DNA of 32,906 nt. Source: Actinomycetes bacterium (GTDB lineage Bacteria; Actinomycetota; Thermoleophilia; Gaiellales; Gaiellaceae). Below, piece after piece: positions 24,197 through 32,360 of this stretch. Below the pieces are notes generated by a model. That model worked only from the letters and a program-made list of their open reading frames with translations, searched no databases and was not told the DNA's origin. The position numbers were made by a program, and so were the translations under genes. Location: contig JAHEXT010000008.1 in the NCBI GenBank assembly GCA_023251945.1, positions 1-32,906 on the forward strand. Direction: 5' to 3'. The number at the start of each line of letters is the position of its first letter. Position 1 is the stretch's first letter.

Positions 24197-24246
24197 CGCG
24201 GGTGCGGAGAGTGAAGGCGCGTGGTGCGCCACCCGATTGACAGTCG
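24195..24246. repeat. Inverted repeat, left arm (within tRNA-like gene)
   Basis: 24232-24246 (CCCGATTGACAGTCG) is the exact reverse complement of 24398-24412, and 24195-24210 (GTCGCGGGTGCGGAGA) matches the reverse complement of 24430-24445 in 14 of 16 positions, in the same order. The two arms thus form an imperfect inverted pair of about 50 bp spaced by about 150 bp. Confidence 0.75.
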
Positions 24247-24292
24247 AGGTGTCCGGTTGCCACCGGATCCGGTTCGAGTCCGGCGCCCTCCG
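24206..24292 (+). tRNA. Class II tRNA-like gene, 8/4 acceptor branch, anticodon loop reads GAC
   Basis: The B-box GGTTCGAGTCC (24271-24281) is perfect. Acceptor GGAGAGTG (24206-24213) pairs with CGCCCTCC (24284-24291), seven of eight positions with one A-C mismatch and one G-U; discriminator G24292; CCA not encoded. D-arm GGCGC-GTGGT-GCGCC (24216-24230), anticodon arm ACCCGA-TTGACAG-TCGAGGT (24231-24250, one bulged A), long variable arm TCCGG-TTGCCA-CCGGA (24252-24267), and a four-pair T stem CCGG/CCGG (24269-24272, 24280-24283). The long variable arm, G73 and GGAGAG end are serine/selenocysteine-like, but the loop TTGACAG gives anticodon GAC, a valine anticodon never found on class II tRNAs. 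It may be a Sec-like or allo-tRNA-like species, or a tRNA-derived element. Confidence 0.5.
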
Positions 24293-24362
24293 CCCAGGCA
24301 TCGCGTCGGCCTTGAGGGTCACGGTGTGGCGACCTGCTGTCAGGCCTTCAGAGCCGGCGCGG

Positions 24363-24518: not shown

Positions 24519-24546
24519 TTGATTCTCTTGCCTCCGGTGTTAGGGT
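24519..24546 (+). promoter_or_regulatory. Promoter of the membrane-protein operon (TTGATT-16-TAGGGT)
   Basis: -35 TTGATT (24519-24524), 16 nt spacer, -10 TAGGGT (24541-24546), in a locally AT-richer stretch. Predicted start near 24553 gives a leader of about 180 nt, unlike the leaderless genes elsewhere in the window. The leader holds an 11-codon ATG frame (24564-24599) and a GGCCGG/CCGGCC hairpin near 24606-24630, so post-transcriptional control is possible. Confidence 0.5.
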
Positions 24547-24731
24547 CGGCCCGACAGAACGAGATGGGCTCAGTCTGGGTCGAGCTGCCGATCCTGTAGC
24601 CCTCGGCCGGTTCATCGCGTTAGCCGGCCCGAGCAAGCAGGTGCGCCGCAACGATCGCAGCCTGAACGCCTCGCGCTCCAGAGACTGCCTCGACGACTTC
24701 CGCCGGCAACCAGCGTGTGAGGAGGTTCTTC

Positions 24732-26297
24732 ATGCAAGGCAAGAGCGGGAGCCGGTCCGGAGTCCTGCAGTGGGTCGTCGTGCTCGTGGTCGGCGTCTTG
24801 GTCGTGACCGTCGTCCTCGGCCTGAATCTGATTCCACGCCTGAACGACGGCCAGAACGTCCTGGACGCGGCCAGGCCGGCGTTCGCTCCTGAGCGTGTCG
24901 CAGGCGCCCGAGCCGGCATCGACATCATCTCGGCCGACGTCGACGTCGCGGATCCGATCGGTACCTCATCGGGCACGGGTGCAACCGAGGTGCCGAAGCT
25001 GATCGCGTTCGTCTCACAGCAGACCGGGCTTTCTGAGGCCGAGGTCGTCGCCGCGCTGCAGGAGAACTTCCCGCACACGACCGCGCTCCTGCAGACGATC
25101 CCGCTGTCATCCGTGACGGCGGAGCTGCCCGGCCTGCTCGCGTTCCTCGAAAAGACACTCGATGTGTCGGAGCCCGAGCTGCTCGCGGCGCTCCAGGCGA
25201 ACTTCCCGCGGCTCACCCAGTCGATCGTCAACCTGCCGACGGTCACCAACGGGTGGGACAACATCCAGTCGATCGAAGGGGCCTCGCGCTTCGACGGCAC
25301 GCCCATCAAGACCGTGCCAGACCTGAGGACGTACTTCAGCTCGGATCTGATCCCCATCTTGGAGACCCAACAGAGCAACTTCGCCAGTCTCGACGGGACA
25401 TCTACCGTGAACTGGATCGCACCCCTCCTGTTGATCGTCGGGCTGGTCGTGATCCTGTTCGCGGCGCTGATGATCGCGCTGAATCTCAGGGGACCGGTAT
25501 CGCGCGGGCTTGCCATCGCGAGCGCGTCGGTCGTCCTTGTCGTCGGTGTGGGAGTCGTGGCACTGGTTCTCGCGGTGTCGCTGGTCCCGCGGGTCGACAA
25601 CGGACAGACGCTGCTCGACGCCCTACGTCCTGCCAACGACCCCGCACGGGTCGAGGGCGACCGCGACGGGATCACCATGGTCTCCGCGATCGTCGACATG
25701 GAGGACCCGATCATGACCTCGCAGGGCGGGGCCGCGGCCGAGGTGCCGAAGCTGATCGCGTTCGTCTCACAGAAAACCGGGCTTTCGCAGGCCGAGGTCG
25801 TCGCCGCGCTGCAGGAGAACTTCCCGCACACGACGGCGCTCCTGCTGGCGATCCCGCTGTCGTCGGTGACGGCTGAGCTGCCCGGCCTGCTCGCGTTCCT
25901 CGAGAAGACGCTCGATGTGTCGGAGACCGAGCTGCTGGCGGCGCTGAGCGCGAACTTCCCGGGGCTCGCGCAGTCGATCGTCAACCTGCCGACGGTCACC
26001 AACGGTTGGAACAACGTCCAGTCGATCGGCGGGGCTACGCGCTTCGACGGCACGCCCGTCAAAACCGTGCCCGACGTCCGTACGTACTTCGCCTCGGACG
26101 TGATCCCTGTGCTAGAGACCCAGCGAGGCAACTACGAGAACCTCGTTTCGACCTCGAACATCGACTTCATCGGGCCTCTGGTGCTGATCGTCGGGATCAT
26201 CGTGATCATCTACGGGCTGCTCATGGTGCTCCTGGCATGGCGTCTGGAGCCCAGCACGAGCGGGGCCACCAGACCCTCACCGATACCGGCGACGTAG
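24732..26297 (+). CDS. Tandemly duplicated membrane protein, function unknown
   Basis: 521 residues from ATG 24732, with a strong GGAGG (24721-24725) 6 nt upstream. The protein is two copies of a 251-residue unit. Each begins with a transmembrane helix followed by LVPR-x-DNGQ or LIPRLNDGQ, continues with a 180-residue domain that is probably extracytoplasmic, and ends with a second helix (LLLIVGLVVILFAALMIAL; LVLIVGIIVIIYGLLMVLL). Each domain itself holds two 37-residue motifs (LSEAEVVAALQENFP-x6-IPLSSVT and VSEPELLAALQANFP-x6-LPTVT), giving four in all. No family is recognised. The repeated AALxxNFP helices suggest a binding or assembly surface. It is the first gene of a six-gene membrane operon. 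Confidence 0.88.
   Translation: MQGKSGSRSGVLQWVVVLVVGVLVVTVVLGLNLIPRLNDGQNVLDAARPAFAPERVAGARAGIDIISADVDVADPIGTSSGTGATEVPKLIAFVSQQTGLSEAEVVAALQENFPHTTALLQTIPLSSVTAELPGLLAFLEKTLDVSEPELLAALQANFPRLTQSIVNLPTVTNGWDNIQSIEGASRFDGTPIKTVPDLRTYFSSDLIPILETQQSNFASLDGTSTVNWIAPLLLIVGLVVILFAALMIALNLRGPVSRGLAIASASVVLVVGVGVVALVLAVSLVPRVDNGQTLLDALRPANDPARVEGDRDGITMVSAIVDMEDPIMTSQGGAAAEVPKLIAFVSQKTGLSQAEVVAALQENFPHTTALLLAIPLSSVTAELPGLLAFLEKTLDVSETELLAALSANFPGLAQSIVNLPTVTNGWNNVQSIGGATRFDGTPVKTVPDVRTYFASDVIPVLETQRGNYENLVSTSNIDFIGPLVLIVGIIVIIYGLLMVLLAWRLEPSTSGATRPSPIPAT
24747..25499 (+). repeat. Copy 1 of a 753 bp in-frame tandem duplication
   Basis: Unit length is set by identical landmarks: GAGGTGCCGAAG begins at 24987 here and at 25740 in copy 2. 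The block 24987-25330 is nearly the same in DNA, whereas the membrane-segment parts have diverged. Boundaries are approximate. Confidence 0.85.
25500..26252 (+). repeat. Copy 2 of the 753 bp in-frame tandem duplication
   Basis: Same period as copy 1. By eye, about 22 of 134 residues differ across the conserved block (25740 onward), mostly conservative Ile/Val or Ser/Thr exchanges. Boundaries are approximate. Confidence 0.85.
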
Positions 26298-26340
26298 TTC
26301 CACCAGCAAACGCAACAACGAGACTTGGAAGGGACGCGAG

Positions 26341-26403
26341 ATGACCAGACGGGTTGAGGCTCCCACAGCTTTCCAACAGCACGTTGTCGCATGCTCACGC
26401 TGA
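26341..26403 (+). CDS. 20-codon leader-like ORF overlapping the next gene
   Basis: ATG 26341 preceded by GGAAGGG about 8 nt upstream; product begins MTRRVEAPTA and stops at 26401-26403, inside the gene starting at ATG 26391 in another frame. The downstream ATG has no ribosome binding site of its own, so this short frame may supply ribosomes by coupling. Small enough to be chance. Confidence 0.35.
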   Translation: MTRRVEAPTAFQQHVVACSR

Positions 26404-26654
26404 TCGCGTCATCAGGCTGGTGGCAGGTCGGGATCGCGCTCGAGATCGCGGTGATCGCGGTGGCCGCGGTGATCGTGATCGTGATCGTCTGGCTGGCGAT
26501 CAGGATCGCCAAGCAGGCCTCCACGGCCGAGCAGGCGGTCGAGGTGGTGCGCCAGCAGACCGCCGAGCTCGGCGGCATCGCGCGGATCAACGACTCGGGG
26601 GTGAGGATCCTGCACGCCGCCCGGTCCCTTCGAAAGGTGGCGGTCGGAAAATGA
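26391..26654 (+). CDS. Small single-pass membrane protein 1 of the operon
   Basis: 87 residues. One long hydrophobic helix (about 10-36, VGIALEIAVIAVAAVIVIVIVWLAI) followed by a charged, helical tail of about 50 residues with heptad-like spacing (STAEQAVEVVRQQTAELGGIARI). No cysteine, no signal cleavage site and no known family. The stop overlaps the next start (ATGA, 26651-26654). The shape, one helix plus a short amphipathic tail, is shared by the following genes, suggesting that they assemble together at the membrane. Confidence 0.75.
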   Translation: MLTLIASSGWWQVGIALEIAVIAVAAVIVIVIVWLAIRIAKQASTAEQAVEVVRQQTAELGGIARINDSGVRILHAARSLRKVAVGK

Positions 26655-26944
26655 CAGCCCCACTTGCTGCACTGTCCTTCAACGAGTATTGGGCGATAGC
26701 CCTGAGCATCGCCTTCGGCTCGGCGGTGATCGTCGCGATCCTGCTGACGGTGCTCCTGGAGGCCGTCGGGAGCATCGAGAGGTCGGTCGACGGCTTGCTG
26801 GAGATCGCGGGCCAGGTCGGCTCGAACACGGCAAACATTCCGCAACTCGAGGCGACGGCGCCCGTGCTGGCACTGATCGTGGAGGAAGCTGTGGTCCAGG
26901 ACGGCTACATGAACGCGCTCACCGACGGGTTCGGTGGAAGATGA
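26651..26944 (+). CDS. Small single-pass membrane protein 2 of the operon
   Basis: 97 residues. A transmembrane helix (about 14-36, IALSIAFGSAVIVAILLTVLLEAV) precedes IERSVDGLLEIAGQVGSNTANIPQL, an amphipathic stretch like those of the DUF948-type proteins, and a mildly acidic C-terminus. ATGA overlaps at both ends bind it tightly to its neighbours and imply coordinated stoichiometry. No recognised family. Confidence 0.75.
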   Translation: MTAPLAALSFNEYWAIALSIAFGSAVIVAILLTVLLEAVGSIERSVDGLLEIAGQVGSNTANIPQLEATAPVLALIVEEAVVQDGYMNALTDGFGGR

Positions 26945-27219
26945 GCAGCACCCACGCACTCGTTCTCCTGTCCGTCGTGCTGGCGGCAGGCGTCGTGCTT
27001 GTGCTGGCCGTCGCGCTGATCGAGGTGCGCAGGGGCCTGACGAGGATCTCGGAAGGGCTCGCGACGCTGTCATCCGCGCTGCAGGGCGTCGAGTCCGAGC
27101 ACCTGCGCCCGCTCGAGGGCGCGGTCAAAGCGATCAACGGGCAGTTCGACATCATCCTCGGCGCGCTGCCGGGGATCGCCAGCAAGGCGGCGGTCGTCGC
27201 CGAGAGGAGGCCGCGATGA
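26941..27219 (+). CDS. Small single-pass membrane protein 3 of the operon
   Basis: 92 residues. Helix near 7-28 (LVLLSVVLAAGVVLVLAVALI), then EVRRGLTRISEGLATLSSALQGV, a predicted coiled coil, and AVKAINGQFDIILGALPGIA, which resembles the NDVVTTINQQLDAGVDLLEG segment of the last protein in the operon. This suggests the small proteins are distant paralogues. ATGA overlaps at both ends. Confidence 0.75.
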   Translation: MSSTHALVLLSVVLAAGVVLVLAVALIEVRRGLTRISEGLATLSSALQGVESEHLRPLEGAVKAINGQFDIILGALPGIASKAAVVAERRPR

Positions 27220-27473
27220 TCCTCTGGTGGATTGGAGACCTTGTTCTGCTCGCGGTGGTCCTTCCGGTCGTCGTGCACCTGCTCCGCGGTGTGCTGGGCG
27301 CCGCCAAGAGCATCGTCCCCAGCGTGCAGGAGATCGCGAAGGCGGCGGCCGCGGGGTCGAAGGACCTCGATGCCGCCGCGCTGCTCGAGACGACGCAGGA
27401 CCAAGTGACCAAGACCGTTGCGGGAGTCGCGAACTACGGCGGCTCCCTCGACGTGATCCTCGACGACGCCTGA
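27216..27473 (+). CDS. Small single-pass membrane protein 4 of the operon
   Basis: 85 residues, ATG overlapping the preceding stop and preceded by GAGAGGAGG (27202-27210), one of the best ribosome binding sites in the window. Helix near 2-24 (ILWWIGDLVLLAVVLPVVVHLL), then SIVPSVQEIAKAAAAGSKDLDAAALLETTQDQVTK in parts, a helical region, and an acidic end VILDDA. No family recognised. Confidence 0.75.
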   Translation: MILWWIGDLVLLAVVLPVVVHLLRGVLGAAKSIVPSVQEIAKAAAAGSKDLDAAALLETTQDQVTKTVAGVANYGGSLDVILDDA

Positions 27474-27484
27474 TGGGAGGAACC

Positions 27485-28156
27485 ATGGCACCGGTGTTGG
27501 CATTCGCGGCAGCGGGCGCGGTCACGATCCTCGCCGTCGTGCTGATCGTCGTCGCCCTCGTCTTCTACCTCGTCTCGGTGATCGCGCAACTTCGAAAGAT
27601 CACGACTGGCCTGGACGAGACCATCGCCAGCGTGGGCGAGATCGTGCAGAAGAGCGCGCCGGTCAACGACGTCGTGACGACGATCAATCAGCAGCTCGAC
27701 GCAGGCGTCGATCTGCTCGAGGGCCTGCTCGTGAAGAAGGCCGGTATGAGAGATGCCGTTGGCCTCGTCGACGGCTTGTACGCAGGCGCGGCCGCCGCCG
27801 GGTTCAGGAACTTTCCGGAGAGCCCCACGACCAAGGCGCCGCGCATCGGCGAGGTCTACACGAGAGGCACGCTCACGCTCGCACGGCTCGGCCGGGAGGC
27901 GCCGATAGCCGCCGGGAACCCGGCAGGTCCTGCCCTCCGGGACGTCGAGCGAGGAAGCCTTGCGGCGCGGCAGCTGTACCCGGAGATTCGTCAGACGAAG
28001 CCGAAGTCCCTGGCCAGGTCTCCGGTCATCGGCACCGACGCGCCCGTGCAGTACGAGCAGCGGGAAGACATCGGGGCACCGCGCAAGCGGCTCCCCGGCC
28101 GCGTGGCGACCGCGGGGCCGGGAACGGCCTCGTCCAAACAGCCCCGCGATGACTGA
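27485..28156 (+). CDS. Single-pass membrane protein with long basic tail, last gene of the operon
   Basis: 223 residues from ATG 27485, favoured over ATG 27473 by GGGAGG at 27475-27480. A helix near 5-33 (FAAAGAVTILAVVLIVVALVFYLV) is followed by a DUF948-like coiled coil (LRKITTGLDETIASVGEIVQ, VNDVVTTINQQLDAGVDLLE) to about residue 95, then a proline- and arginine-rich, probably disordered C-terminal half. It shares the helix-coil layout with the four preceding small proteins and with the protein at 19580. Function unknown; the basic tail could bind nucleic acid or acidic lipids. Confidence 0.8.
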   Translation: MAPVLAFAAAGAVTILAVVLIVVALVFYLVSVIAQLRKITTGLDETIASVGEIVQKSAPVNDVVTTINQQLDAGVDLLEGLLVKKAGMRDAVGLVDGLYAGAAAAGFRNFPESPTTKAPRIGEVYTRGTLTLARLGREAPIAAGNPAGPALRDVERGSLAARQLYPEIRQTKPKSLARSPVIGTDAPVQYEQREDIGAPRKRLPGRVATAGPGTASSKQPRDD

Positions 28157-28186: not shown

Positions 28187-28549
28187 TCAGTCAACCGAGA
28201 ACTGCCGCGGGTCAGAGTCGTCGACGGAGACGATGCACGACGGAGGACAGCCGACCGGCAGCTGCAACTGGCCGCTGGCCCACCACCAGCTCTGGACTTC
28301 GACGACCGCGGAGTCCGGCACATCCAGTTCGATGACGACACAGGCATCTGCACCAAGCGTCATCGCCCTGTGCCATGCGTACTCGCCCGCCAGCGCGTGG
28401 CTCCGTGTGACAAACGATCGCGGCCGCAGCCCTTCTCGACGGATCGAGTCCAGGCAGTCGACGGTTGTTCCGTGGAAGATGATCACGTCTCGACCCGCAG
28501 GAAGACAGCTTGCCACCTCGGGCTGCGCCCGTTGGCCCGGACCCGTCAC
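28187..28549 (-). CDS. Small protein resembling the ADP-ribosyltransferase fold
   Basis: 120 residues, GTG start (start uncertain, another GTG lies 12 codons in). The core reads VIIFHGTTVDCLDSIRREGL, then RSFVTRSHALAGEYAWHRAM and ACVVIELDVPD. A His-Gly-Thr followed by a helix ending in EGL, then a Thr/Ser-containing strand before an Ala-rich helix, is the arrangement of ART-like folds (PARP, Tpt1/KptA, DarT). A final catalytic Glu cannot be assigned with certainty. It is the only minus-strand gene between the membrane operon and cox, and it shares no promoter with either. It could be a stand-alone toxin-like or tRNA/nucleic-acid modifying enzyme; no antitoxin partner is visible. Confidence 0.5.
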   Translation of the reverse strand: MTGPGQRAQPEVASCLPAGRDVIIFHGTTVDCLDSIRREGLRPRSFVTRSHALAGEYAWHRAMTLGADACVVIELDVPDSAVVEVQSWWWASGQLQLPVGCPPSCIVSVDDSDPRQFSVD

Positions 28550-28615: not shown

Positions 28616-29491
28616 GTGCAGACCCCTGCGTCATTCGAGTACGAGCGCGCGACCAGTGTCGAGGGCGCGATCGCATCGCTTCAGAGGCTTGGCTCGGGGG
28701 CGCGCATCATCGCGGGCGGGCACAGCCTGCTTCCGATGATGAAGCTCCGACTTGCGAACCCAGAGCACCTGATCGACATCAACGATCTCGCGGAGCTCTC
28801 CTACATCCGCGAGCAGGGCGACGAGCTCTCGATCGGGGCGCTGACCCGACACGTGGAGCTCGAGAAGTCCGAGCTGCTGGCCCGCCACTTTCCGCTGTTT
28901 CGCGACGCCGAGAACGTGATCGCCGACCCGGTCGTGCGCAACCGCGGCACGATCGGCGGCTCGCTGTGCCAGGCGGACGCGGCCGAGGACCTCTCGGCCG
29001 TCTGCTCGGCGGTCAAGGCGAAAGCCGTGATCCGCGGCGCGGGCGGCGAGCGCGTGGTCGGGATGGAGGACTTTCACATCGGGCCCTATGTGACCGCGGT
29101 GGGCGAAGGCGAGATGCTCACCGAGGTCCGGATTCCGTTGCGTCCGGGCGGCGGCAGCGCGCACGAGAAGGTCGAGCGCCGTGCCGGCGACTGGGCGATC
29201 GCCGCCGCGTCGGCGGCCGTTTGGATCGAGGGCGGCAAGATCGCCGACGTGGGCGTCGCGCTCGGCGCGGTCGGGCCTACGACGATCCACCTCTCGCGAG
29301 CCGAGGAGCTTCTGCGAGGGAAGGCTCCGTCGGAGGGACTATTTGCGCAGGCAGGCGAGATCGCCTCGGCAGACTGCTCTCCGAGCGCGGACGGTCGTGG
29401 GCCGATCGACTACAAGCGCCATCTCGCGAGCGTCCTCACGACACGCGCCCTGAGCCGCGCGACCGCACGCGCCCTGCACCAGGAGGCCTGA
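28616..29491 (+). CDS. coxM: CO dehydrogenase medium (FAD-binding) subunit
   Basis: 291 residues, GTG start. Binds FAD and passes electrons from the iron-sulfur subunit to the quinone pool. FAD motifs are AGGHSLLPMMKLRLA (near 32-46) and TIGGSLCQADAAEDLSAV (near 110-127), as in CODH and xanthine dehydrogenase medium subunits; the C-terminal CODH FAD domain is complete. The order medium-small-large is that of form I cox operons. It is separated from coxS by 2 nt. Confidence 0.92.
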   Translation: MQTPASFEYERATSVEGAIASLQRLGSGARIIAGGHSLLPMMKLRLANPEHLIDINDLAELSYIREQGDELSIGALTRHVELEKSELLARHFPLFRDAENVIADPVVRNRGTIGGSLCQADAAEDLSAVCSAVKAKAVIRGAGGERVVGMEDFHIGPYVTAVGEGEMLTEVRIPLRPGGGSAHEKVERRAGDWAIAAASAAVWIEGGKIADVGVALGAVGPTTIHLSRAEELLRGKAPSEGLFAQAGEIASADCSPSADGRGPIDYKRHLASVLTTRALSRATARALHQEA

Positions 29492-29493
29492 TC

Positions 29494-29973
29494 ATGCACG
29501 TCTCGATATCGGTAAACGGCGAACAGGTCTCCCGTGAGATCGAGCCGCGTCAGTTGCTCGTTCACTTCATTCGCGAGACGCCCGACCTGACCGGCACGCA
29601 TTGGGGCTGCGATACGTCCAACTGCGGCGCCTGCGTGGTGCAGATGGACGGCCAGCCGGTCAAGTCGTGCACGATCCTGGCGGCGATGTGCGAGGGTCAT
29701 GAGATCCGCACGGTCGAGTCGCTCGAGGTCGACGGCCAGTTGGACCCGATCCAGATGGGCTTCCACGAGCAGCACGCCCTCCAGTGCGGATTCTGCACGC
29801 CGGGGATGTTGATGACGGCTCGCGCCCTGCTGGATGAGAACCCGAATCCAACCGACCTCGAGATCCGTACGGCTATCTCAGGGGGCATCTGCCGCTGTAC
29901 GGGATACAAGAACATCGTCAGCGCCGTGCGCTGGGCCGCTGAGTACGAAGCCGCCGCAAAACAGGAGGTATGA
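29494..29973 (+). CDS. coxS: CO dehydrogenase small (iron-sulfur) subunit
   Basis: 159 residues, ATG 29494, preceded by AGGAGG. Carries two [2Fe-2S] clusters: the ferredoxin-type one in GCDTSNCGACVV plus KSC (fourth ligand), and the second in CGFCTPGM and CRCTGY. It relays electrons from the molybdenum-copper site to FAD. All eight ligand cysteines are present and length is normal. The stop overlaps the first possible coxL ATG. Confidence 0.96.
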   Translation: MHVSISVNGEQVSREIEPRQLLVHFIRETPDLTGTHWGCDTSNCGACVVQMDGQPVKSCTILAAMCEGHEIRTVESLEVDGQLDPIQMGFHEQHALQCGFCTPGMLMTARALLDENPNPTDLEIRTAISGGICRCTGYKNIVSAVRWAAEYEAAAKQEV

Positions 29974-29975
29974 GC

Positions 29976-32356
<2,381 letters not shown>

Positions 32357-32360
<4 letters not shown>

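Follow-up and report, generated by a model that had tools for sequence, protein, structure and literature searches.

A five-gene set of single-helix membrane proteins linked to CO dehydrogenase in Thermoleophilia and homologous to the HylTM proteins of [NiFe] hydrogenases

Upstream of the CO dehydrogenase (CODH) genes coxMSL in a genome of the class Thermoleophilia lie five small genes, here called s1 to s5. Comparisons of gene neighborhoods and of sequence profiles establish them as a set of fixed order that is linked to CODH and homologous to HylTM1-5, the short transmembrane (TM) proteins of group 1l [NiFe] hydrogenases. The reading that we favor, with somewhat better than even confidence, is that s1-s5 assemble into a hetero-oligomeric base in the membrane, on which a soluble gas-oxidizing dehydrogenase docks and through which it reaches quinone. 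The DNA that we analyzed (the window) is a stretch of 32,906 nucleotides, for which a preliminary description had been made from the letters and open reading frames.

The preliminary description listed six genes in one cluster, and all six open reading frames were confirmed as genes. The first of them, A (24732..26297, +), begins 213 bases downstream of position 24519, where the operon had been said to start. It encodes a 521-aa protein composed of two units of helix, helical domain, and helix; its halves are 71% identical over 222 residues, in keeping with the duplication claimed for it. A is followed on the same strand by genes for five single-TM proteins: s1 (26391..26654, +; 87 aa), s2 (26651..26944, +; 97 aa), s3 (26941..27219, +; 92 aa), s4 (27216..27473, +; 85 aa), and s5 (27485..28156, +; 223 aa), the last with a conserved C-terminal tail of ∼120 residues. 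The five genes span 26391-28156. As had been noted, s1/s2, s2/s3, and s3/s4 are joined by ATGA overlaps of 4 bases each; the gap between s4 and s5 is 11 bases. The strong ribosome binding sites attributed to the cluster were found for A, s4, and s5 and not for s1. The single promoter attributed to it was not borne out by a scan for sigma-70-like sites (0 found versus 0.3 expected), a scan that is weak for such GC-rich genomes, and scanning the locus for promoters and terminators returned no site. Between the window and locus L056, dN/dS was 0.12 to 0.22 for s3-s5 and 0.43 to 0.65 for s1-s2, the latter values coming from very few synonymous changes.

The CODH genes start 459 bases after s5 and encode the FAD subunit (coxM, 28616..29491, +), the iron-sulfur subunit (coxS, 29494..29973, +), and CoxL (coxL, 29970..32360, +). 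The closest solved relative of the latter is the CoxL of 8uem (1215 bits), and its motif VAYRCSFR, which matches the signature AYxCSFR, places it in form I. An open reading frame of 120 aa (28187-28549, −; ..IFHGTTVDCLDSIRREGLRP..) lies on the opposite strand between s5 and coxM. By eye it is ADP-ribosyltransferase-like, and it had no Pfam match. Unlike the window with this opposite-strand frame, most other loci of the class have an s5-coxM gap of <200 bases. On the other side of the cluster, the tRNA-like RNA of the preliminary description (24205-24294, +) is called by ARAGORN as an 89-nt tRNA-Val with anticodon GAC. Its sole tRNA match in Rfam is tRNA-Sec, which at 37.1 bits falls below the cut-off of 47. 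The RNA thus combines a valine anticodon with a tRNA body that is selenocysteine-like and is possibly an allo-tRNA.

Each of s1-s5 has one strongly hydrophobic helix near the N terminus followed by a soluble tail, the architecture that had been ascribed to them. The tails had also been called amphipathic and DUF948-like. Their amphipathicity is present but modest (mean z of 0.9 to 1.9 over shuffled sequences), and the likeness to DUF948 is weak, with s5 scoring 11.7 bits against a Pfam cut-off of 37.2 and s1-s4 giving no match. Searches of Pfam and NCBIfam with A and s1-s5 revealed no match above cut-off, including to secretion and transport families, in line with the description of the set as unrecognized membrane proteins. 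Among solved chains, s1 and s5 had no sequence match. The candidates that Pfam, NCBIfam, and PADLOC did offer were only subthreshold or unsupported matches and were rejected. One of these, the identification of s1 as Cmr1 (PADLOC, E 1.4e-4), rested on a short match that its context does not support.

Net charge on the C-terminal side of the TM helix exceeds that on the N-terminal side in each of the five families, s2 having no positive C-flank. This difference predicts an outside N terminus and cytoplasmic tails, on the side of the membrane where CODH and these hydrogenases would be found. The alignments of s1-s5 contained no conserved cysteine and, by eye, no conserved charge inside the membrane helices other than an Asp/Asn near the outer end of that of s4. 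The tails of s1 and s3 contain conserved histidines; hydrogenase-linked relatives lack the one in s1. Protein s5 is predicted to form one continuous helix (residues 4 to 86) followed by a tail with no confident fold when modeled alone. Many residues of this tail are nevertheless invariant, a combination to be expected of a segment that would fold on a partner.

Can the five genes be tied to CODH? The preliminary description held that nothing in the sequence proves such a link; comparative genomics shows a linkage. Searching 399 whole genomes of the class with s5 gave matches in 35, with 25 of them above 100 bits. In all 25 of these strong loci, a count whose members are not phylogenetically independent, coxM follows s5 on the same strand, with coxS and coxL next wherever the contig continues. 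Upstream of s5, 24 of the 25 have s1-s4 in this order, and in the remaining one the contig begins at s5. Because this fixed order recurs in 24 of 25 class loci, the five-gene set is beyond chance. The gap between s5 and coxM is <100 bases in most strong loci and ∼4 to 6 kb in one genus (five genomes). Eight more CODH loci were found in other families of the phylum (f21, f33, f46, and f70), where coxMSL is followed downstream by s4-s5-s1-s2-s3. The form I motif is present in those of the eight that were tested, and in one that was read gene by gene (L146), coxG lies immediately before s4.

Among the matches in the class, a CoxL ≥78% identical to that of the window has the module adjacent wherever the contig allows. 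No module was found upstream in class loci with a more distant CoxL (20 loci, upstream sides only, some cut short). CODH can work without the module, since in the class the majority of the remaining form I CODH loci lack it upstream. In three loci (L069, L070, and L071), the module lies between two sets of coxMS or coxMSL genes, so that CODH clusters occur in tandem in some genomes. We found no published description of small TM proteins in cox clusters in a literature coverage that is incomplete. As far as the papers covered go, the CODH link of the module is new, and HylTM1-5 have already been described.

HMMs built from CODH-linked s1-s5 and searched against the class and other families of the phylum revealed relatives in both, often in the order s1-s2-s3-s4-s5, beside the genes hydSL of high-affinity [NiFe] hydrogenases. 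About 30 such hydrogenase loci lie outside the 25 strong CODH loci. The two hydrogenases compared with solved structures were closest to 5aa5, a group 1h enzyme according to PMC9561532. Profile-profile comparison of the CODH-linked and hydrogenase-linked sets gave 99.2 to 99.7% on the diagonal, which is partly built in because the hydrogenase-linked set was gathered with CODH-derived HMMs; reversed controls stayed at <17%. An independent test used the open reading frames between hydS and hydL of six loci, chosen by position and TM helix only (five per locus), the loci being called group 1l from this gene order. Positions 1, 2, and 4 matched best to s1 (97.2%), s2 (98.5%), and s4 (96.9%), respectively, and reversed controls reached ≤20.5%. 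Position 3 matched s5 at 92.8% and s3 at 46.7%, and position 5 matched s5 at 95.8% and s3 at 94.4%; these two positions do not tell s3 and s5 apart. Thus, s5 matches position 5, and s3 is collinear with position 3 with a profile closer to position 5. The paralogous origin proposed for the small proteins agrees with the profile-profile groups {s1,s2,s4} and {s3,s5}, and the same grouping ({1,2,4} and {3,5}) is common to the CODH-linked and hydS-hydL sets.

HylTM1-5 have been reported as five short TM proteins between the subunits of group 1l hydrogenases, with no function stated (PMC9561532, citing earlier work). Like s1-s5, they make up a single block of five short proteins with one TM helix each; the two sets are homologous by profile-profile comparison, and positions 1, 2, and 4 are collinear. 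HylTM1-5 sit between hydrogenase subunits, whereas s1-s5 precede the coxMSL of a molybdenum CODH, and s5 of the window extends into a long conserved tail that is missing from most of the hydrogenase-linked relatives examined. On homology and linkage together, s1-s5 are therefore a CODH-linked HylTM module: by profile, they are relatives of HylTM1-5 in a new setting and not the HylTM set in the published sense. The preliminary description had said that clear homology to a known system would count against it, and such homology was found in part, namely, to HylTM1-5 of group 1l [NiFe] hydrogenases. Of the searches it proposed, profile-profile comparison recovered these relatives, and Foldseek on A gave no convincing solved relative.

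Group 1m hydrogenase clusters have been described with DUF1059 and two single-TM proteins (PMC9561532). Three clusters that are 1m-like in look, with DUF1059 and TPR genes (L084, L086, and L090), have relatives of s1, s2, and s3/s5 beside hydSL; they contain at least three or four small TM open reading frames, not two as reported for 1m, and no CODH. In L080 (8595-12100), L073 (3746-5500), and L170 (5124-7533), larger proteins of about 140 to 350 aa, again with a single TM helix, form a second set next to the five small ones, and some of them match the same profiles weakly.

In a tree of concatenated s1-s3 from 63 loci, 24 CODH modules of the class formed one clade (99/97), and the other CODH modules formed a second group among the hydrogenase-linked modules. 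Neither enzyme was present in the stretch read for the modules of L078, L082, L135, L141, and L150; some rows labeled hydrogenase in the tree are modules of this kind and were excluded from the AU test. Two separate origins of the CODH link were considered on the basis of the two groups and were not adopted, as the test does not reject one clade for all CODH modules (AU P = 0.24). Transfer of the module between enzymes, in one or more events, is therefore plausible. In a Chloroflexota locus (L171, 8643-11879), the small-TM block and a full-length A lie near genes for a GlcD-like FAD-oxidase, a GlcF-like protein, malate synthase, and lactate permease. From this locus, glycolate oxidase is a possible third dehydrogenase using the module.

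Protein A had been counted as a full member of the set, and here only the five-gene core stood: only 4 of the 25 loci (the window, L014, L016, and L056) have A next to s1-s5. Relatives of A occur sporadically, in 10 of 249 genomes. A strong A match was found in nine genomes of the class, seven of which also have the module, four of these being from one genus. A full-length A is again beside the module in the Chloroflexota locus above, and in a Chloroflexi locus (L025) a relative with just one unit is found 2.3 kb upstream of hydS. Given this sporadic distribution and partial co-occurrence, A is a facultative partner. It is predicted to be all-helical (AlphaFold2 mean pLDDT of 77.9). The best Foldseek match, human TTYH1 (E 0.014; TM-score of 0.14), was rejected as its fold, as were the VIA-align candidates (Z ≤ 9.1 with long helices), which did not score above unrelated helical proteins.

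Two known proteins bear on what the module may do. CoxG is a menaquinone-binding protein of CODH proposed to hand over quinone (PMC13240472). Like the module, it is linked to coxMSL and membrane associated, with a proposed part in the quinone step (PMC13240472); unlike s1-s5, it belongs to a different, larger single-domain family. Of the 35 genomes searched, the majority of them with the module, 33 contain CoxG (PF06240), often on the module's contig. Replacement of CoxG by the module is thereby ruled out, and CoxG would therefore work beside it. HucM, the stalk of Huc, is a helical, membrane-associated subunit proposed to bring menaquinone to the cytoplasmic gas-oxidizing enzyme Huc (PMC10017518). 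It is a single 188-aa protein that forms a homotetramer with peripheral membrane contact, whereas s1-s5 are five single-TM proteins. Among solved chains, HucM gave no match to s1 or s5, only part of HucM being modeled in the structure. By analogy, HucM would be the closest functional parallel of s1-s5; we do not claim relatedness.

How might the module act? In the explanation that we favor, s1-s5 would have arisen by duplication of an ancestral protein with a single TM helix plus a cytoplasmic amphipathic helix. Their products probably assemble into one complex, as the preliminary description had proposed. The tails, including the long s5 tail of the CODH version, would dock CoxMSL on the cytoplasmic side, and the helix bundle would open (mena)quinone to the enzyme, feeding electrons from trace CO into the respiratory chain, with CoxG acting together with the module. 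The homologous module would play the same role for cytoplasmic [NiFe] hydrogenases, both as HylTM1-5 of group 1l and in the clusters beside 1h/1m-like enzymes. Complex formation, docking, and quinone access are what we infer; in their favor, the module is common to two unrelated soluble enzymes that feed quinone, CODH and [NiFe] hydrogenase. Weighing against this reading are the modest amphipathicity of the tails, the C-flank of s2, the form I CODH loci of the class that lack an upstream module, the quinone role already proposed for CoxG, and the modules seen near neither enzyme or near glycolate oxidase genes.

A simpler role as a mere membrane anchor or scaffold near the electron acceptor, with no conduit and the quinone step wholly that of CoxG, is a weaker candidate, which we regard as doubtful. 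Single TM helices without conserved cofactor ligands would suit an anchor, as would the wide occurrence of coxG, often on the contig of the module and adjoining it in L146. However, five different subunits, each conserved in its own right, are hardly what a plain anchor would require, and no CoxG is known to work with the hydrogenases that carry this module. It is unlikely that s1-s5 serve solely in the assembly or maturation of the enzyme. Although the hydrogenase modules lie near a maturation protease and CooC-, HypC-, and MoxR-like genes, CODH and [NiFe] hydrogenase share the module despite unrelated cofactors and maturation routes, and Pfam and NCBIfam reveal no enzyme domain in s1-s5.

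The linkage in all 25 strong loci, in eight CODH loci of other families, and in about 30 hydrogenase loci elsewhere makes it very improbable that a general envelope system (DUF948-like or stress related) sits beside cox by chance, a reading to which the weak resemblance of s5 to DUF948 (PF06103; E 0.31) and the few modules that stand alone would lend themselves. An ion- or proton-translocating module conserving energy from CO or H2 oxidation would account for several TM subunits per enzyme, but the lack of conserved charge within the membrane helices, save the Asp/Asn of s4, leaves us giving this almost no credence. Beyond the docking and quinone-access base that we favor for CODH, we tentatively raise the broader idea, which we hold to be somewhat less probable than its converse, that s1-s5/HylTM serve as a general plug-in for quinone access that evolution has passed among soluble dehydrogenases of unrelated kinds (for CO, for H2, and perhaps for glycolate).

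These data suggest one adaptor by which two unrelated enzymes for atmospheric gases are held at the bacterial membrane. For the step in which soluble CO- and H2-oxidizing enzymes pass electrons to membrane quinone, Huc offers a structural model and a single mycobacterial CODH a proposal. The presence of homologous five-protein modules next to enzymes of either kind points toward a shared solution in many uncultured bacteria that may clear CO and H2 from the air, and it singles out five candidate genes. If the plug-in idea is true, the module would be a shared electron port for trace-gas respiration.
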